DNA of 64,000 bases from positions 3,162,001 to 3,226,000 of the forward strand of contig JAHRHY010000003.1 of assembly GCA_019671135.1 (NCBI GenBank). The letters are read 5' to 3'. The stretch's first letter is position 1, and each line of letters begins with the position of its first letter. Source of the DNA: Linnemannia hyalina (Eukaryota > Mortierellomycota > Mortierellomycetes > Mortierellales > Mortierellaceae). The notes beneath the pieces are model-generated. The model was not told the origin of the DNA and did not search any database. It saw only the letters and a list, made by a program, of their open reading frames with translations. A program made the position numbers and the translations under genes. Below are positions 23,669-48,001 of this stretch, piece by piece.

Positions 23669-24319
23669 CGCAATGAAAACGATGATTGGGCTCTCCTAAG
23701 TACAGAGTAAATCCTCAGCGAAAAAGGGAAAAGGCGCAGCATTAGTTCCAAAGTCAATTGGAGCAGCAAAAAAGTAGACAAGATGTTTGATGATAGATCA
23801 AGTGAAGGCACGCTGAATTAGACCGAAAGAAACACTATCGGATCCCAGTAATCATCAGTGCCATTCCCCCTTGTCATTGGAAGGGAATGGCACTCAATTA
23901 GTGGACCCGCTTAACACATTCTCGGGTCGAAAATGTGGATAGCCATTCACGAAGTTGTCCTCATGTGACTGACCAAGAGAGATGAGGGCCCCGTCCAATC
24001 GAATCATTGCCAATAACAGGAGGAAAGAGAAGGAACGCCGTCTTTACACAAAAAGAAGCACTATTTGATTCCTGGGCCAACACCAACATCCACTCCTTGC
24101 CTATCATGAAGGGAAGATTGGCTACGGATACCGCATGGCGAGGACTGGCTTCACACACCCGCGATCCTCTTCGCAGATGTGCATATCCTTTCTCAAAGCT
24201 TATCTCATATGTCTGGCCAGAGAGATGAGAGCCTCGTCATCCAGAGTCTGTCATTGGTTTGTTTAAAATTCAGACACAATTGAGGTAATTACCTACCAAC
24301 AGTTAGATGAAACGTCTTC

Positions 24320-24326
<7 letters not shown>

Positions 24327-24358
<32 letters not shown>
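24327..24358. repeat. (GA)n microsatellite
   Basis: About 15 GA units followed by purine-rich sequence. The 23690-24320 stretch has no supported gene, only a partly repeated GAGAGATGAG.GCC word at about 23970 and 24218. Confidence 0.9.
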
Positions 24359-24359
<1 letters not shown>

Positions 24360-24698
24360 AAAGGAAGGCGAGAGGGATGAGAGAAGATGAGAAAAGAAAA
24401 CGTTATCTTGTAAATATTAAAGATTAAAAAGGATACGTCATCAGAGATTAGGGGCGCAGGACAAAGGACGCCACAATTCTCTTATTGGCTGAAAGAATCA
24501 ATGGGATCTTTCCTAATATGGATCGAAATTAACTGTCAATTGACACCAAGGCTTTCTGTTCTCCATATAAGTGACAATATGAAATGACACTCAAAGCTGT
24601 TTCTTCCTCACCATTTTCCTACTCTTACTACTTCAGCAAACCGACTATCCTCATCAACATTCGTTTCTTTTGACCCCAAAAGCACAAGCCCCAACGCC

Positions 24699-27600
24699 AT
24701 GGGGTTCTTCGACAGGTACCCTTTCATTCGCAAGAAGGGCTACAACCCTACTGTTCTATACCAATCAGTCCTAGCCTCTCTCCTGACAACAGGCACACGT
24801 CGCTTTGATGTGATGGCCAACTGCTTTCCCGTCATTCAACGGACCTACTCGAACCATAACTTGCCTCAGGATGTGGCGCACAAAATTTTGGAAAACGGCA
24901 TTAAACGATCTGGCAACCCACTCAACATGCATCTAAAGTGCTCCACAAAAGTGTTCAACCAAAACACGATTTTGCCGTTTTTTTTGAAATGCTCATTCAC
25001 CAATGTTCCAACCGGCCCCCAGATTCCAGTCATTCATTCTCCTGAATCGTAACCCCATTCACCACCACTTGCTCTTTTTTGCATGGACCGACATTGGATC
25101 ATCGCCGGAATTGAAATGCCTAACTCTGCTTGAACAGTTTAATGGATTACATGCATCACGATCTCCTTTTTCAACTTGCGGAGTCTTCGTAGTTTCTTAT
25201 TACCTCTACATTTTAATGAGTTACTTCCTCAATCCTATATGACATTGTGTCAAGGTTTGGAGTTCCTACTTATAGTCTTTTGTGTGTGACTTATATGCAT
25301 GATTTTACATGGGTTTAGCACGTATTTAGCTGTTTTTTTAATACCACAAGCTCAATGCACTTTTAACAGGCAAACTGAGAGCTGGTCCATGTATAGAACA
25401 CGCTGTGGGGTCTAGAAGTCTTTAATGTGAGAAACCAGCTACTCTCAATGAAGTGTAATACCGTGACAGGATTTAAAGTCATGCTAACTCCATGTAACAA
25501 TACTTACTTTAGTGATATCTCATGTTAACGTTGCGGTAATCCCATACCTTTTCTATGTTGCTGATCCACAACATGTTCTATACATGGACCAGCTCTCAGT
25601 TTGCCTGTTAAAAGTGCATTGAGCTTGTGGTATTAAAAAAACAGCTAAATACGTGCTAAACCCATGTAAAATCATGCATATAAGTCACACACAAAAGACT
25701 ATAAGTAGGAACTCCAAACCTTGACACAATGTCATATAGGATTGAGGAAGTAACTCATTAAAATGTAGAGGTAATAAGAAACTACGAAGACTCCGCAAGT
25801 TGAAAAGGAGATCGTGATGCATGTAATCCATTAAACTGTTCAAGCAGAGTTAGGCATTTCAATTCCGGCGATGATCCAATGTCGGTCCATGCAAAAAAGA
25901 GCAAGTGGTGGTGAATGGGGTTACGATTCAGGAGAATGAATGACTGGAATCTGGGGGCCGGTTGGAACATTGGTGAATGAGCATTTCAAAAAAAACGGCA
26001 AAATCGTGTTTTGGTTGAACACTTTTGTGGAGCACTTTACATCGACGGCGGTCAGGCAGTAGAGAAAGAGAACACAACCGAGGCACGAGACGAAACCCGA
26101 CACAAGGCCCTGGACCGCACAGAAAAGAGCATCGAGGTTTTCGAGGAAAGACTGAATGACAATTTGAGGGTCAGGAAATGACACTTCACTGACGTCAAGG
26201 CTGGACTCAAGTCGTCTTTTCACTGGTCGTTGAGGAGTCGCCAGGAGTTTGCCAGCTACATGCGGCACTGCGGTTGGACTGTTGACGTTTGCGAGACGGA
26301 GGCGGATCTTGCAATGGCCCAGGATGCTCAGCCTGACGACATCATCATCTCGAAGGACAGTGATATGATGGCGTATCAATCGGTCAAGACCTTGTGACAC
26401 CCAGTCTCTAATAACCTTATCCTCGTTTACAAGCTTCCCAATGTCCTCGCGACCCTTGGGATCACTCGGACGTAGCTGACGGCTCTGGCTGTGGTTTCGA
26501 GGAATGACTATCACAAGAATATCTACTCGCTTGGACGAGCAGCCAATTTCAGCATCATCAAGGAGATTGGATCAAGCCCAGGTAATATTGCGTTGAAAAG
26601 GAATGGCGGCTATTTTTGGGCATTCTCTGCCAAATGCTACTTTACAAATCGAGTTCTCATTTTGATTACCTCTTCTTTTTTAATAGACACCTGAGAGATT
26701 GTCGCTGCGTACCTCACCCACCGTCAAGTCAAGGTGAAAAACACCAAAGAGGAGACATTCGGGAACTCTATCCGGGTGTTCATTCTTTTGCAACAAGATC
26801 GTGTCGAGCCTTTGGCCCAAGAGTCACGAGCCCAGCAACTCTTCCGTGTATTGCAGGACAAGTTCAGGGAGCTTTGCATCAAGCATGAGACTCTGAAAAA
26901 TATTCGAGCAGCAGGAGTCAAGGAGAGGTAATTATACCATTCATTATTGAAGGGCTTTGTACTTTGTGGAGAATTATTTGCGAGGTGCATTTCTCACCAT
27001 TTCATTTGGTTGGTTTTTAATAAATAGAACCAAGGACGACGTTGTACGGTTGCCATCGCCAAAGACCACAACCGATACAGAACAGTCGAGTCACCCAAGG
27101 TTGTCTCCATGGCCACCACTACTGCTACTTCATCGCCACAATCCACTCTGGCTCCTGGACCTTCACAACAGAGCTCCTCTTTGCCCTCTAACCCGAATGC
27201 AGACGGGCATCCTCCATTGGCCAGGACGCGAATTCCGAGGAATTGAGGTCGGTTTTCGTTCAAAGAGAGAACGCGCAAGATTGTCCATGGCCCACCTCCC
27301 TAGGCCAAGCAGTTCAAGCTCAAGTTCTACCGGGAGCCGGCGCAGACCAACAGTGTTTCTATCAAAAAGTCCAAACCGAAGGGCGACAGAGTCTCATCTG
27401 GACTTCAGAATAAATCACTTGCAGATCTCGACAAGAATGGTCTCGTGCGGTCGATGAACTGGCACCACCCAACGTCTTCTTTGGAGATTGGTACAGTGCG
27501 TGCGAACGTCAGACGCGTGGCGATGGACGGAGTTGCCGGCACTGACGCTCTTACCAAGGAGCGGCAGGAGGTAGTCGATTGTTCCCAGGAGGCCCCACGG

Positions 27601-30260
27601 CTGGCTGTGGGCGTGAAGCGTGAGGCTCAGCGTCTTATTGACCATTTCGTGGAAATGCTGAGGGATCGCATGGACAAAGTGGAGGAGGAGCAAAGGATTA
27701 TATTGGAATTAATGACGCCACCCCAAACGATGACCAAATTATATCGACTTCAGTGCAGGAAGGACTCTATCACGGAGGCGGAGCGGGGGATACTGTTGTC
27801 GGTTTGCGAGTGGACAAGCCTGCGGATATCGATAAGGGTGAGGAGGATGCCGGCGGCATCAAGGAGAACGACGACTCCAATGTCGCGAACAGGCAGGACA
27901 AGGAGTTCAGCTTCTTAATCTCTTTCCTGACGTATCTCTATTCAGGAAATTACCCGAAGGAGAACTCCAAGGCAGGCGGCGTTGCTAATCAGCTTGTTGT
28001 CTGGTTGGTGAAGGACGGGATACATGATCCAGTTCGGGCGCGCAGGGAACTTCAGGAAACCGCACCATTCACACCGACGTATTTGGTCCGATCTGTGTCT
28101 GGTCAGCTGGCTGTAGAGCTGAGACGAGTGTATGGGCATAGGAGCCGTGATCTCCACAATAAGGTATGGGCTGAAGTATCTTTGGCTAATTCAGGTGTGC
28201 TGTTATGCTTTCATCGCACAAAAAAAAATATCGCGAATATTATTTAATTTATTTTATTTTATTTTATTTTATTTTTTTCTTTTCATGCATAACTCAAGGT
28301 CATGAAGGACAAGGGCATAGTAAGAGGAGATGTCGACATTCAAATTCGACCAGATGTTTCCGCCGTCGAGAACTTTCTCTACTTGAACAACCTCACGGGA
28401 AACAGCCGTCGGATTGTGCCCCTTACCTCCTCACAGCAACCTTCCATACATTCTCGGAGAGGGAGATTGCAGCCTTTTCTGGAAGCGTACATCGCTGAAG
28501 GAAAGATTGGTGCGGTTGGGCGAGTTGGATAACTCGACCATCACCTCAGTGAACGACCTTGACACATGGATAGCAGGAAAAGAACCCGGTTTTATCATCA
28601 AGAACTTTGTCGCCGACGTCGCCCCTCAAGGTCTCACAAGTCGACAGCGGAAGCAAGCAGATCATCGATCTGCGGCCAAGCTGTGGTCCTTGGATCAGAT
28701 CCGGAGTCACTTGGTGGATGTCCAGAATGAATGGCTCGACCCCATTACCTATGCCACGAAGGGATATGTCCTCCGAAACTCTCTAAAGACCGACGGGTTC
28801 AGGATACAGTTGTTGGCATTCAAGCTTCGAGAGTTTCAGGATGTTCGATTTCGCCGTATCGCAGAGGACAGGCTGCCCTCAAGATTGACTTCGACTGTTG
28901 GCGGAATCGATTACTTTCTGCCTGAGATCAGGGATGTCATTACCAGCAAGGACGACGTCGCCAAATATTGGCCAGGAGTTCAACCCGAAGAGATCAAGGC
29001 GTTGACTTTGGACGGCGGAAGGCATGTGTCATTGGCGCCTCTGCGGATATTCCGGACGACTCGCTCAGGACTGGAAACGGCAAGGAGGTCGGCAGGTAAC
29101 TTCAAGCATGGAAGGGATTGTTGCTACCTCTGTGGAACCGACAGCAACGTCGACATCCTCAATCTCTCTTCCTATCCCCATCTCGGTTTCAACTCAAGAT
29201 CAACAGACAACAACCTCGCCTCTGGTGTCAACAAGGACGGTGTTTCACAATCTGCGTTGAAACAAAAGGCGGTGTATCAACCAACATTCCGCTTCCGTCG
29301 GTGGCTGGAGGGCGAGAAGCAGGCGTTGCTGGATGTGGGTGAGGAACACCGAACGATTGCAGGAATCGAGACTGAACTTCCACCTTTGAAAGGCGAGGGG
29401 GCGAGTGTCATCAACTACACTGCAGAGCTGAGGCGAGTCGAGGAGAGACTATTGGAGTTCTAAGCGGGCCCAGACCAGCTGTATAAACGCCACAAGTGGG
29501 ACATGGAGCGTGCCCGTCAGTATGAGTACCAATTGCTTGCCGACCGCCTCCTTGGTATCGTTGGAGGAAGTATCGGGCGTCGATATGATCCAGTAAACCC
29601 TGTCTTGATTGGAGTAGGACTGGGCAAGTTCTCGATTAGGAGTGGACTCTCCTCTCTTGACTCCACTTTCCTATCTTTTTTTGTGCAGAAGGTAACCATT
29701 GATTCAAGAATATCATTAAGGATTGACACCTGCGAATACTTGTCATCCGCAAAACAAACAAAAGATAGTTAATACGATTGCCCGTTTCCTTCAAATTAGG
29801 CACGGTCGTTGGGTTACCTGGCCGTTGGACTCAATGGGTATTATACGAGCAAGAAATGTCCTTACTGTGGGCTATGCGTCGCCCAGGTCACCTTCCGCCG
29901 TTTCTTTTGCCCAACCTGCCACGTTTATCACCACCGTGACGTTATGGCGGCTGTGAACATGGCCAACCTTGTGCGAGGATATCTTGAGAAGCAACAGCGT
30001 CCAGAGCACCTCCAGCCTGTGGCTCCGGACGGATCTCTTCCTTGGATGGCTAGTGCCGGCGCAGGATCAGAACACTCTCGAACACAACCCCTGGAAGCGG
30101 CAGCAGCGGGAGCACTGGCACAATGAGTCGATGGCCAGGACATCAAAAAGGGCCTGCCTCTACCTCAAGCACCACGGACGGAACTCAAGGCCGACTAAAG
30201 AGGTCAGCCATTGCCTCTAGCTCAAGCCCGGCGCGCGGTGGAAAGGGTGCGCGGAAGTAG
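24699..30260 (+). pseudogene. XPG/FEN1-like nuclease joined to Fanzor (TnpB-like) protein, decayed
   Basis: ATG 24699 starts MGFFDRYPFIRKKGYNP. After a palindrome insertion at 24934-26039 the frame resumes with IDGGQAVEKENTTEAR, CETEADLAMA, DDIIISKDSDMMAY and LTALAVVSRNDYHKNIYSLG, the acidic motifs and H2TH-like end of XPG/FEN1 nucleases. Four good introns follow (about 26583-26690, 26929-27027, 28165-28300, 29691-29799). Beyond them is a long region with PFTPTYLVRSVSGQLAVELRRVYG, IVRGDVDIQIRPDVS, then ALTLDGG (RuvC-I aspartate), PVLIGVGLGKFS (RuvC-II region), a zinc ribbon CPYC...CPTC (29858-29919) and HRDVMAAVNMANL (RuvC-III aspartate). These are the hallmarks of Fanzor, the eukaryotic TnpB-type RNA-guided nuclease. 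Stops at 26179, 26395, 26473 and 29461 and frameshifts (about 27.0-27.7, 28.45, 29.02 kb) show decay. Whether both halves formed one protein is inferred from collinear introns and no intervening promoter. Confidence 0.7.
24934..26039. mobile_element. 1.1-kb foldback element of Tc1/mariner type (TA duplication)
   Basis: Left arm about 24934-25400 and right arm about 25574-26039 (466-467 bp) are almost identical inverted copies (one T-run differs by one base) around a 173-bp spacer. Ends are TA-AAGTGCTCCACAAAAG with TA on both sides. The arms carry no transposase. Related single ends lie at 13032 and 30540-30890. It sits inside the nuclease domain of the XPG-Fanzor gene, between LNMHL and IDGGQ. 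Confidence 0.85.
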
Positions 30261-30330
30261 TCTACTGTCTCCATCTATCTTGGGGTGCCATTAGGCGAAT
30301 ATGCGATACACACCTATCTCTTGAAGGTGT

Positions 30331-30440
30331 CCATCTACTATTAAACTGTACCACTCACTGCAAGGTTCAGAAGAGTAGTTCTTGTATGTGATCATCTAAG
30401 GCAATTATACTCTCAACTGTATCTTTGAGGCGAAATACAG
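30331..30440 (+). repeat. Internal fragment of the DDE element
   Basis: TGTCCATCTACTATTAAACTG, CACTCACTGCAAG and TTCTTGTATGTGATCATCTA match 2999-3110, 57718-57835 and 63015-63130. Only about 110 bp remain, just after the XPG-Fanzor gene. Confidence 0.75.
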
Positions 30441-30539
30441 GTGTTTTGTTACATGGATCTAGCACGATTTCACATCTTATCATGATATTGCACTCTATTG
30501 AGAATGGCTGGCTTTGCACATCGAAGAATTCTAGATCGC

Positions 30540-30890
30540 ACACCATGTCCTCAGTATGGAACTGCTTTCAGTTTGTCTGTAGAAAGTGCATTGATATAGT
30601 GGTTTTTAATAAAACCTGTTTGTTCCGTGCTAAACCCATGTAAAAATTTACATGCAAATCATTCGCCATTACATGCGATCCATTTAATTGATCAAGCGGA
30701 TTTAGGCATTTCAATTCCGGCGATGATCCAGTGTCGGAACTTGCAAAAAAAGACAAGTAGTGATGAATGGGGTTATGAATCAGGAGAATGAATGACAGGA
30801 ATCTGGGGACCAGTTGGAACATTGGTGAATTAGCATTTCAAAAAAAAAGTCGAAATCACGTTTTGGTTGATCACTTGATAGGAACACAGT
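30540..30890. mobile_element. Single arm of the foldback family
   Basis: From about 30545 (CAGTATGGAACTGCTTTCAG) to GGTTGATCACTT at 30876, the order of words (CTAAACCCATGTAAA, ATTTCAATTCCGGCG, GAATGAATGACAGGAATCTGG, ACGTTTTGGTTGA) matches the right arm of 25574-26039 at lower identity. It is an older, one-armed copy. Confidence 0.75.
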
Positions 30891-31049
30891 ATTTTTTTTT
30901 TTTTTTAGGAGGTGGGGGAATGATTGAGGTGTGGTTGGGAACTTGAAGAAGAGGTGCTTGTGGCAGCCAAACGTTCATGGAGACGTTGCTTTTTGATCTC
31001 CTCCCTGCAGGAGAATTCCAGGCCGCGTTGTCAATGCTTCGTTCACATA

Positions 31050-31475
31050 GTTACAAAAAGATGTGGTGGCTAGGCAGTGGCGGCGATGCCTTAGGTTAGC
31101 AGTCATATTCTTTAGTAGATAGTATTAGTAGTGCGCCGAGCCCTCTTGTCTGCTCTTTGTCCTTTTACACATCACTTCTTGGACGAGAGCAGTATTGACA
31201 AGAGTTTCGCTGGCGCGCTGCAGGTAACAACCCCCTCTTTGATAATATGAATACAAGGTCCTTTTACACATCACTTCTTGGACGAAAATAGTATTGACAA
31301 GAGTTTCGCTGGCGCGCTGCAGTGTATCGTTTCATGTGATTCTCTTAGGACGTTAATATCACTTCCCCCCCCTCCAACCTACAACCCCCCTTCCCCCCCC
31401 CCCCCCCCCTCCTACCAATTGAGGACGTAACAGCGGTCCTACAACTCTGGCCGTCGACCCTCTCCCCTGAGTAAC
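31050..31475 (+). repeat. Dispersed repeat R1, copy 3, with internal tandem duplication
   Basis: Same ends as the copies at 1607 and 9707. Here the block from GTCCTTTTACACATCAC to GCGCGCTGCAG occurs twice (about 31159-31223 and 31258-31322), which explains the extra 100 bp. The C-run is at about 31392-31410. The following 31480-31525 matches the flank of copy 2 in reverse orientation. 31530-32040 shows no supported gene; the stretch before 32047 is TTCC-rich. Confidence 0.85.
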
Positions 31476-41687: not shown

Positions 41688-44600
41688 GATCCTGTGACGT
41701 ATCAATGAAAAATGAAAATAAGATGAAGAAGGCTGGAAGGTACTGGATGAAAAGATGGCGAGGATTGAGAGATAAAGAATGAAAGAGGATGTGGGTTTAC
41801 AAAGGGAAGATTAAAAGCGTGGGAGCGGTGGATGGAGATGCTACGCAACAATAATGGACGCATTAAAAACGTCATAGCAGATGCAAGCTACCAAATTTTG
41901 ATGCGGTGACGTTTTTAATGCGTCCATTATTGTTGCGTAGCATCTCCATCCACCGCTCCCACGCTTTTAATCTTCCCTTTGTAAACCCACATCCTCTTTC
42001 ATTCTTTATCTCTCAATCCTCGCCATCTTTTCATCCAGTACCTTCCAGCCTTCTTCATCTTATTTTCATTTTTCATTGATACGTCACAGGATCATGGTCG
42101 GCAAGTCACTCACCCTGTACTGTCTTGTCGACGGAGAGGCTACCACCAACGCGTTCCCTGTCAAGATTCCTTCAAGTAACACTGTCGGCGACCTCAAGGA
42201 TCGCATCAGGAAAAAGCAGAGTCCTGACTTTGACGACATTGTTGCAAACAAGCTCATCCTCTACCGCGTCTCCATTCATGACGACGGTACCCATCACGAC
42301 AAAACGGAGCTGAACAACCCTAGAACGCCCCTCTCCAAGCTGTTTTCCAAGAGTCCGGACGATGACATTTACATTTTTGTCCAGCGTCCCGCTCTCCAAG
42401 GTAATGCACACGCGTGCTACTTTCATTCAGACCTTGCTTATAATCTTGTCCATCGTACTAACCTCAATTTACACATCCGATTGCGCTGACATAGTTCAAG
42501 CCTCTGTTCCTACCCGCGTCTCCGCTCCTCGTTCGGCCCATCCATGGGATAGGTCTCATTCTAGTGAGTGTCATCAACCTCGTTTTAAAGCTCTAATGGG
42601 TAGGCTTGATGCTATTAGCTAACTTCCATTTTTTCCCTTTGATTATGCAGTATCACCCACACAACTGAAGTCTGTCCCGGTAGACCTCATCGAGAAGGAG
42701 TTGGCAGTGATTCTCAAAGGCGTCGACCATCACCATATCACTGATCCCTTCGATCCAAAGACCGTCGAATCGTCTCAAAGGGAAAGACTAGGACCTTTTT
42801 ACAAGAGGACCTTGCCATATCACAATACAGCGACAGAAACAAGCCTGGTGATGTTAGGACTTGAGCTGGACAAGCAAGCGAGGACGGCAAGCGATGAGAC
42901 TCTTCGTTCTATTGTCGAGGACGACATCGGAAAGTTCAATGGTCACCGCGTGGTCGCCATGGTTGCCCCGTCCGGCTCAGGAAAGACCGCCACTGTCATT
43001 GATCTGGCAGCCAAGCACTTTGTCGTTTACTGCGTCTGTTGTTCTCCGGACCCTACAACCTCTCCTGACTTTGAAGACTCCAACTTTGTCACACTTGCCA
43101 AAGACGTCGAGCGTATATACAGGAACAGGACTGTCGGTGGGCCGAGGACATTACCCGAATTGTTGAATCTCGATTCCGATGTGAAGGCACGCGTAGGAGA
43201 GCGCGTCGAGCACGAGTTCCTTGCGCGATTTCTTTTCCTCCTGCTGCTTCTCAACAAGAATCCTGATCTGGAACCAATCCAGTTTTTCCGTGAGCAGACC
43301 ACTGGAGGAGCCACAACTATCGGCGAGCTGGTCTATAAGCTTCGGGAGTACGACTACCTTACAATTTACGCTATGCTTGGTAAAGTCCAAACCAAGCTTC
43401 AGTCTCTCCTTGTTCCCAAACGACTTGGATTGGTGATTGCCCTTGATGAGGCTCAAGTTGCAGCGACCCACATCTTGTCTGGCAAGCTCCTCTCGCCATC
43501 CGCATTGAGCATGAGCAATAACGTCCTCTTCGACAGCCACAGCCAAATACGATCCAACTTCCGCCGCGGGTTTCTCACGCCTTTGTCCGGAACGCTGAGC
43601 AGAATGCAATCAACGCTGGTGATTCTTGGCACAGCACTCTCACTGCAGGATGCCGCTCATGTTTACTCGGCCATCGCCAAACCCATCAATTTCACAAGAA
43701 TAACGGAATTCCCCCTATTCAATGAGGCCGACGTGGACAAACTTCTCTCGGATCTGGTCGACATGTCGGGCTGTGAAATCCCACCTGCCAAACGCCGCAA
43801 GCTAACAGGACGAGCTCGATTTTCCGTTGACGTCGTCAAATACCTTGCCTCGCGCTGCTCTTCTAAGGCCTCGAAACAAGCGATTCTGGCTAGTGCTGTC
43901 GACCTGTCGATTGAGCAGACATTAACTCAACTCCGGGCCGGGGTTCGCGAAATCCTCGAGAGCGACAATACAGGCGAGGCAGCTCGACTTCTTTGCCGAA
44001 TGGTCTTGGCCTATCGTCTCTCAGGTGCCAAAATTTCGTTCTCGAGCCAACAGCAGTCCGACTTTGTGGACAAGGCCTTGTGCAGACTAACACCACATCC
44101 TGATGGTATTCATTTGATCATGGACGAGCCAATGGTACTCGAGGCGGTGCAGGAAGAGTTAAAGGCTTCATGCAAGGATCCGTCGTTCGTTGAGTACCTG
44201 GATCAACTCTACCAAGTTGTCACCAACTTCGGCGTGGCTTCAACGTCAAAGGGGAATGCACTGGAGCCCCTTGTCCGTCGATCACTTCAACGCTTCAACG
44301 GCTACCGTCTTGTTGATCTTCCGTTCCTTCGAGGTGTCGCATTGCCCACCTGGTGTATCACTCTCCGGTTACAAATTGACAGTATTGACACAGCCAAAGG
44401 GTTCGGATACACCATCGGTGGAGTTCGCGCCGACCTCGCCTTCCTCACCAAATGCCCTCCAAACAAGATGCTTATTGCCTGCTCAGGCACACGTCCGGAT
44501 GGAGCCTGGTTTTTCTCTAACAGAAAGTATGCCGGCTCTCTTGCGATCAAGTTCTTCAGCAGCCGCTTTTCAGTCGACATGCAGCAGTCAAATGAAACTT

Positions 44601-45640: not shown

Positions 45641-48001
45641 TTATTTGTTGTATCTGTGCCTCTTGCTTCGGCATCTCTCGACTCTGTTGGCCTTCTTCCC
45701 GCTACCTTCTTGTTCTATCTTCTGGTCTTGCCTGATCTTAAGGATCGTAGCCTGAAGACGATTGTACGTGAGCTTATGGTCCTTAGGCTTCAGGGACAAG
45801 GTGACACCGACCAGCTTGTTAAGCTCTTCCTTCAAACCATTGACATCCTCCAAAGTGACTATCTTGGGTGCGAGCCTAGCCACTTTTCTCGGTGGAACAG
45901 AGTCGGGGTTCCAATCGACGTGCCTCTGTTGGCTGTCGAATTCCAAGTGCTTCAGTTCCATCTTGACCAACGCAACAAGATGACATTCGATCCCAAGCTG
46001 GAAGCCAGTAGGACAACTACATCTAGAGATTGTGCCATGCTCAAAGTCGACGTTCATCCTGTAAAACACCTTCCTTCCGTTGACCGTTTTCTTGGACAAG
46101 GATCGGATCTTGACCGTCGAATCTCCTTCATACTTGATACGTCCGTGCTTGTTGTCGGTTATATCCTTTGCGGTAAATTCCTTCGCCACCTTGGTTAGCT
46201 CGACCGTCTTCCTACTTCCCGAGAACATGCGTCCTGCTCCTGAATCGCTGGTGATGCACTTGAGTTTGTAGGAAGGGAGAACTTGGCGATACAAGATGTA
46301 AATAACCGTGTCTGCATACTGACGCCTGCTATTAGCAAGATAGTGCCTCTTGACCTGATTATGGTAGGACTCGATAAGGTTGTTGGTGTTCATACGTCCA
46401 TATGAGATGTCCTTCCTGTGAGCGAACATCCACCTCGGCTTCATGTCGACGGAAAAGTATCGATCCAGAGTTCGGAGGAATGCGTAACCTTTCCACTTTT
46501 CCTTGAACTCGTCGATGTTGCGGTTGGCTTTGGTGAGGTCCTCCTCTACAACGAGGAATATATTGAACTAGTATGAAAAAAAAAGTTAGGGTAATTGTGG
46601 AGCGTGGAGACAATGGTGGTGTATGCCAAACGTTGATGCAGTAGCTGCTGAATAAAAAAAAAGAGAGAAAAAAACATGCGTTTTACCTCCCAAACAATTT
46701 CCGTCACCGTCGCTGCCTTTGCTGTCTTCAACCGTTTCTCAGGCCGTCCTGCTTTATCCAAACATTTACGGCGAGAATCCGTTGCCCTCATGACTAGTGC
46801 TGTTACAGCCTTGAGCACATGGAAATAGCAATAAAAAACCTGGGCGGAAGGAAATGCTGCTGTGATAGTGTCGAACTCGGCGATACCCTGATCCATTAAT
46901 GCGACCTTCGGAGAATAATCCTGGTGGTAGTACATCTTGATATGCGCCAGGAGTCGGAAGATCCAATCGATGAGAACCGCTTTTTTCGCCGACCGGGTTA
47001 AACAGAAGGCGACGGGTATACCGTAGCCTTCCGGATTTTGTCTTGCGACCAGTGTGAACAAGAAAGTGTTCTTCCTAATTCGTAAAAAAGAAACAAAAAC
47101 ATCAGATGGGAACAGGCACCAAATAGCCGCATCGGTAAAAAAAAAAAACATACCCAAATACCCCATGGGTTCCATCAATGGAGATGATATCACCATGAGC
47201 AAGTAGCTTCTCCATCTGCCACTTTGAAGAGAAACAGTAGGCGCCATCGTTTTGGTCGTGGCAAGAGAACCCCTGTTCTCCAGCAATGTCGTCCATCCAG
47301 CGTTGTGCGGAGATGACCCGGTCGTCGTGCTTCATGACAATTTCCAAGAGGACCTCGGACTTGACGTTCTGGATGTCATCAGGCGTGAGGATATCGTCGC
47401 GGCTTGGCCTAAGACCTTGAGCGATATCCGCGGTGATTTGCTCGTTGCTCTTGGAGAGCTTCACCTTTATATCCCTGTTTCTCGCGCCATTCTCAACTTC
47501 AGCTCGAATAAGTCGTTTCATGCCGTTGGAAAGGGGCAGATGGGCGACCTTATTTTTTGCAAAGTTGTGATTGTGCCGATAGAAATACATCACTTCAACC
47601 ACCTCCACTACTTTGTGACTGGTCAAGGATTGAGCCTTGTAGTGGAAGTTGATTCTACTTTTGCAGCCGCATTTTTTAGATCCTTTCCAAATAGCCCGCG
47701 GCCTTCCTGTTCTTCCCCCTGCATGGCGATACTTCTTCTCCTCCTTGTTGCCTGAGCAACCGCATTTGAAATAGTCAACACGGTCACCTCCCTTGCATTG
47801 GCGGCCTCCTTTCTTGTAAAAGGTGACTCCAAGGAACCGCTCATGCTTCGCCAACCAGATAGGGAATACGTCCTTCAACAGCGTGAAAGCAATAAGATCC
47901 TCGCCTCGGTAATTGGTGGACTCCTTGACCAATTCGATGTCGCCGTCAGTGAGAGTTCGTCCCGATTCAATGATAGATGCGTCTTTGTTAAACTCTTCCA
48001 T
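45641..48001 (-). mobile_element. MULE (Mutator-like) transposase, three exons, intact frame
   Basis: Exons 48001-47154, 47074-46687 and 46567-45641 join in phase to 720 aa. The N-part has a zinc-binding FAR1/WRKY-GCM1-like region (CGCSGNKE, KKCGCKSRINFHY, YRHNHNF). The catalytic domain shows ISIDGTHGVFG (first Asp), VALMDQGIAEFD, then FYCYFHVLKAV (C..H), and NNLIESYHNQVKRHYL (Glu). A SWIM zinc finger closes it (CSCPTGFQLGIECHLVAL). These are the standard parts of a MULE transposase, and no stop or shift was found. I could not find long terminal inverted repeats by eye. It could be an active element or a domesticated gene. Confidence 0.85.

Follow-up and report, generated by a model that had tools for sequence, protein, structure and literature searches.

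The domains named for Fanzors, the RNA-guided nucleases to which the gene described here is closest, are REC, WED, RuvC, TNB, and FRI in the available part of PMC11423790. Their RuvC catalytic triad consists of Asp, Glu, and Asp, the Glu being located six positions ahead of the zinc finger, and a DPG motif at RuvC-I is near exclusive to Fanzors (PMC10711439). Fanzor1 is known as cargo of several transposon superfamilies, and transposase-less elements are known among its MuDR-like carriers (PMC3627910, available part). In this study, a 64,000-nucleotide stretch of the genome (51.5 Mb) of the soil fungus Linnemannia hyalina (Mortierellaceae) was analysed (C23:3162001-3226000; hereafter, the window). 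It contains a decayed gene whose product is almost certainly one protein of ~1,350 residues, in which an XPG/FEN1/EXO1-type 5' nuclease is followed by a linker and a Fanzor RNA-guided nuclease. The fusion resembles Fanzor1 (SpuFz1, GtFz1, and PpFz1) in its REC, WED, RuvC, and TNB regions (by structure match), the alternative catalytic Glu, the zinc finger, and the location in transposons. Unlike Fanzor1, it has an additional N-terminal XPG half of ~340 residues, which the published Fanzor domain lists do not name as far as the available part of PMC11423790 goes, and the family of the window copy has DGG, DAG, or DLG for DPG at RuvC-I. In the open-licence full-text literature (supplements excluded), no description of Fanzor- or TnpB-bearing transposons in Mortierella was found, nor, in the parts of it that were available, one of a Fanzor joined to an XPG/FEN1-type nuclease.

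A preliminary description of the locus had placed an XPG-type and a Fanzor-type nuclease in this order on one strand of the window and in a single gene. The order was confirmed: when the window pieces were joined, XPG_I exceeded its Pfam cut-off (E 3.7e-06; 27.7 bits vs. 24.9), and so was the Cas12f1-like TNB domain (PF07282) at 29800-30123 (E 7.7e-12; 45.6 bits vs. 26.3), between an ATG at 24699 and a stop codon at 30258-30260. With tblastn, 118 pieces of the Fanzor half and 45 of the XPG half were obtained in the genome. The XPG matches of four queries were then pooled (84 places) and set against the 91 TNB matches genome-wide; at 62 of the latter an XPG match was located upstream on the same strand (spacing, 1,985-4,336 bp), compared with two TNB matches at which an XPG match was no more than 6.5 kb away but on the opposite strand, and two at which it was downstream. 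Thus, the XPG-Fanzor order is not due to chance. Note that 22 of the 84 XPG places had no TNB match, some of them having a match to the middle part of Fanzor instead.

Intact relatives, which the preliminary description expected to exist, were found in the same genome. The C13 copy (C13:857940-862370) has five exons separated by four GT-AG introns (91-102 nt each) and encodes 1,348 aa, the XPG exons being linked to the Fanzor exons in a single frame by a GT-AG intron of 98 nt. L087 (C4:813200-819900), which belongs to a distant family, also has five exons (1,351 aa), with its last intron at the point matching that of C13 (QK before.LGY), and the profiles of the C13 and L087 families matched mutually in the XPG and RuvC-TNB parts with the order kept. 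L089 (C23:1072800-1079000) has a single open reading frame (ORF), 1,380 codons long, in which XPG motifs are followed near the end by MDPG with no intron between, and its TNB match is directly downstream of this ORF. The XPG part of L089 was firmly matched by the profile (60.6 bits; the reversed sequence gave no significant match), its RuvC part gave a weak profile match (2.9 bits) together with the DPG motif, and a Pfam search of the ORF returned no family. The single-gene reading is supported by L089, by the in-frame intron of C13, and by annotated Mortierellaceae proteins that span both halves; the halves are thus not always separate genes, nor always parted by a stop and a promoter. That XPG and Fanzor are two adjacent genes of one transposon, merged by gene prediction and splicing, might be suggested by the in-frame TAA (AGG TAA) into which exon 2 of C13 runs when the intron is retained, and by several annotated proteins, mostly marked partial, that stop after the XPG half. 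However, the uninterrupted ORF of L089, the 11 of 32 database proteins that cover 90% or more of the fused query, and introns that leave little room for a promoter make this explanation highly improbable.

The 32 proteins were obtained with the full C13 query in a search that reaches relatives sharing short words only, with the best 7,996 candidates scored. Among the 28 of them that were aligned, both halves were present in 18, which were from Dissophora, Mortierella, Linnemannia, Haplosporangium, Podila, Entomortierella, Benniella, and Actinomortierella (eight genera). With the L087 query, in a search of the same reach, 14 proteins were obtained, named from Linnemannia, Entomortierella, Dissophora, and Podila. 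Such proteins carry the database labels "XPG-I domain-containing" and "Cas12f1-like TNB domain-containing"; automatic annotation has thus met both domains in them. The distances of the XPG halves and of the Fanzor halves were moderately correlated among the 18 proteins (Mantel r 0.46, reached by 1 of 2,000 permutations). No relative was found in the viral and prokaryotic contig collections, in which few patterns were scanned.

In one predicted structure, the XPG fold was matched at one end (EXO1/FEN1) and the Fanzor fold at the other (solved Fanzors). The Fanzor match begins at HPTVTLDVGT (~residue 418 of the modelled protein), which by sequence is within exon 3 of C13. When the Fanzor half of C13 was searched against PDB with phmmer, only weak matches were obtained (best E 0.00094, a TnpB-like protein), and a structure-database search with exon 4 of L087 gave nothing relevant. 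The XPG half differs from the Rad2 family (EXO1, FEN1, and XPG) in being 13-16% identical in the alignments, joined to a Fanzor, and carried by a transposon, and in having a Gln variant in a sister family (see below). With the XPG_I profile, P0079 (26.2 bits) was, like the window pieces, above the cut-off, and C13 (19.7), P0059 (20.1), P0061 (23.5), and P0084 (22.6) were below it. The active-site residues are largely kept. For the XPG half, seven acidic positions were considered, which we take to be catalytic from EXO1 and FEN1; in the family of the window they were kept in 23 of 24 readable rows for the first and in 25, 25, 25, 25, 26, and 26 of 26 for the others. The RuvC Asp, Glu, and Asp were kept in 26/26, 20/23, and 22/23 readable rows, and the four zinc-finger Cys in 21-22 of 22-23. 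As in Fanzor/TnpB, the TNB zinc finger of this family precedes the last catalytic Asp and follows the Glu by six residues. DPG at RuvC-I, which it lacks, is present in the second family and in L089; we regard this motif as typical of Fanzors and not as strictly defining.

At least two kinds of transposon carry the gene: one has terminal repeats, and another is associated with piggyBac. In the group of the window, a 22-nt terminal repeat was matched 34 times genome-wide (reversed control, 0). By eye, the C13 element has the terminal repeat at both ends and is located between exact 9-bp repeats (ATTTGCATG), C22 has eight matching bases flanking the element, and no target duplication was seen for C4 and C48. 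MULE/MuDR transposons have terminal inverted repeats with a 9-bp target duplication. All 23 matches to the MULE transposase (PF10551) were more than 10 kb away from each of the 34 terminal-repeat matches. One such PF10551 match (36.1 bits) is in the window at 46810-47076 on the minus strand, away from the terminal repeats of the element. The terminal repeats, the Fanzor cargo, and the lack of an encoded transposase are shared with the MuDR-like Fanzor1 elements of Rhizopus, Phycomyces, and Mucor, for which, unlike here, the available part of PMC3627910 does not mention a nuclease fusion.

For the second group, a piggyBac match (PF13843) was found upstream on the same strand at 28 of the 84 XPG places, compared with none downstream and two on the opposite strand; six of these upstream matches are in open frames of 563-616 aa. 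In L086 (C4:125200-131700), for instance, the XPG-Fanzor gene is preceded by a piggyBac transposase whose open frame spans 563 aa. In the L069 family, 11 full XPG matches have near-equal scores, the piggyBac piece is truncated (PF13843, E 1.2e-20), and the five copies compared have a sharp right end in common. A target duplication of TTAA is characteristic of piggyBac transposons; at the ends of the L069 family (TTATCCCC...GGGATA), no clear target duplication was seen. About ten near-identical copies are present in each of the L087 and L086 families, which suggests recent movement. In two annotated models (P0094 and P0096), a piggyBac piece is joined to Fanzor.

These carriers bear on the possibility that the XPG half acts in transposition, trimming flaps or ends at excision or integration. 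The terminal-repeat group, with no recognised transposase near its repeats, would fit such a role. In the second group, however, the piggyBac transposase means that the XPG-Fanzor gene need not supply transposition, and we consider this role distinctly unlikely.

Between the stop codon and the right end, ~90 nt are conserved in the group of the window. For five single folds of this right-end element, the z-scores ranged from -3.2 to -5.6. When 76 sources were searched with a covariance model built from three similar copies, 32 matches were obtained; 25 of these were located at right ends (a count in which overlapping loci appear twice and which includes a fold-back pair), and seven were elsewhere or on the reverse strand. 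In 15 chosen copies, both-side changes were found in 10 of 29 pairs (shuffled mean 5.0, reached by 1 of 500), and the covariation score was 0.219 (shuffled 0.122, with 0 of 500 reaching the observed score; slid versions, maximum 0.105), in an alignment fitted to the structure and hence leaning towards it. In the second group, four 3' ends share a different arrangement: one hairpin has a loop of 7 nt, and another, the terminal one, closes on the last bases of the element (GGGATA); the stem letters differ on both sides between families (z-scores of -0.9, -3.6, -2.5, and -3.4). By position and predicted structure, the right-end element would fit a Fanzor guide-RNA scaffold. It is improbable that the XPG half serves to process the guide RNA or its transcript, as a 5' RNA nuclease. 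A fold-back element of ~1.5 kb with two inverted copies of the C25-type right end was seen in L078 (1-1901; C1:238900-240800). In the window, weak matches to the right-end model are present on both strands at 41849-41965 (20.0 and 19.7 bits), perhaps another palindrome.

With the fusion, the element might be able both to cut DNA and to influence how the break is repaired. In the mechanism that we propose, the right-end element would be the guide-RNA scaffold, with the guide taken from the flanking DNA, and this guide would direct the Fanzor half to the DNA adjoining the right end of the element, where it would cut guide-matching sites that lack the element. The XPG/EXO1-like half, tethered at the break, would then resect or trim the 5' ends, and repair would favour homologous recombination with the element-bearing copy or chromosome, by which the element would be kept or spread. 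The 5'-resection role is proposed by analogy, because increased homology-directed repair is reported for a Cas9 editor based on EXO1 in the available part of PMC11107001; that editor likewise combines an RNA-guided cutter with an EXO1-based nuclease, but it is man-made and Cas9-based, whereas the natural fusion is known here from sequence. The preliminary description had considered flap processing or excision of the carrier, either of which may occur; since some carrier elements also hold an intact-looking piggyBac transposase, we think that end resection for recombination-based retention is likelier than excision. We give the explanation as a whole (the fusion and the inferred mechanism) about an even chance. 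The full mechanism is plausible, if slightly less probable than its opposite, and it is only tentatively that we see in the protein a natural, self-contained RNA-guided cut-and-resect enzyme, in which a Fanzor break and EXO1-like 5' resection would lead to recombination and to transposon retention or homing.

Several points weigh against this interpretation. An upstream XPG match is lacking at 29 of the 91 TNB matches; two of these (C22 and C33), the ones for which this was judged, match the window copy only from inside the gene onward and therefore look 5'-truncated. The fusion is known here from sequences and a predicted structure, in which the relative placement of the halves is unreliable (pTM 0.53) and EXO1 and FEN1 tie as structural matches; resection rather than flap cutting is therefore a guess. 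A free MAFFT alignment of 13 right-end copies gave six pairs with no double changes and no covarying stem. In the second family (15 rows), Gln takes the place of the XPG Glu of the I-region in all 11 rows that are readable there, the remaining XPG acids being kept in 7/9, 14/14, 11/11, 11/12, 12/12, and 13/15 and the RuvC triad in 12/12, 9/10, and 7/7. Non-cutting XPG modules exist among the Mkt1- or Asteroid-like XPG relatives. The Gln, together with a match above the cut-off to PF12813 (the Asteroid-type model) in one of six proteins tested, could be taken to mean that the XPG half is a non-cutting module for DNA binding or docking. We consider this unlikely, since in the family of the window each of the seven acidic positions is conserved in almost every row and dN/dS of the XPG exon between subfamilies was 0.10-0.18 where computable (dS 1.8-3.5, near saturation). 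In recent pairs, which have few changes, dN/dS of the XPG exon was 0.16 to 1.77; for the Fanzor exon it was 0.06 and 0.14 (the two distant pairs computable) and 0.48-0.97 in recent pairs.

As for the window copy itself, all exons are on the plus strand, as is the left terminal repeat (24456-24477; the family pattern with two mismatches). Exon 1 begins at the ATG with the XPG N-terminus (MGFFDRYPFIRKKGY...; 24699-24935), is split by a palindromic insert of 1,102 bp (24936-26037; two nested inverted repeats, 240 nt, the pairs being 99-100% identical) flanked by TA on each side, and continues with the XPG I-region (26038-26581, the end being placed after C13). Exon 2, the C-terminal part of the XPG half (26687-26927), exon 3, the linker and the start of the Fanzor half (27028-28163), and exon 4, REC/WED/RuvC (28299-29691; RuvC-I LDGG at ~29.01 kb), have putative borders, and exon 5 (29800-30260) encodes the TNB zinc finger CPYC...CPTC and RuvC-III HRD. 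In-frame stops are present at 26179, 26395, and 26473 in exon 1, 26692 in exon 2, and 29461 in exon 4, and the reading frame is broken in exons 3 and 4. With these stops, frame changes, and the palindromic insert, the window copy is dead, as had been described. At the alternative catalytic Glu position it has Gly (LNGYYTSKKC, codon at 29836), where most relatives have Glu. Neither the right terminal repeat nor, in the covariance-model search, the right-end RNA element was found beside it. The palindromic insert, the left terminal repeat, the loss of the right end, and the Gly are additions to the preliminary description. A diverged partial relative of the palindromic insert (30443-30887, 73-85%) is at the expected right end of the element, and two 65-nt direct repeats (95% identical, starts 99 nt apart) are present at 31159-31322.

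The region 24000-30960 of the window is duplicated at C49:2224965-2231580, where the longer shared stretches are 95-98% identical and the 5' flank is included. The duplicate has additional sequence at the points matching 28256-28263 and 29178 of the window and is without the palindrome, with a single TA at that point. The palindrome may be a TA-duplicating insertion with its empty site in C49, but the intact copies in C4, C17, and C44 read TATA at this point and C49 is two bases shorter, so that the second TA is only a possible target duplication.

In the literature examined, Fanzors have one nuclease each, and their biological role is unsettled. That an EXO1/FEN1-like fusion is kept in two families distant from each other, and in more than one type of transposon, points to what may follow the cut, namely the processing of ends and the choice of repair. 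The fusions offer natural counterparts of the hand-built editors that combine a cutter with an exonuclease, and make the use of Fanzors to their transposons directly testable.

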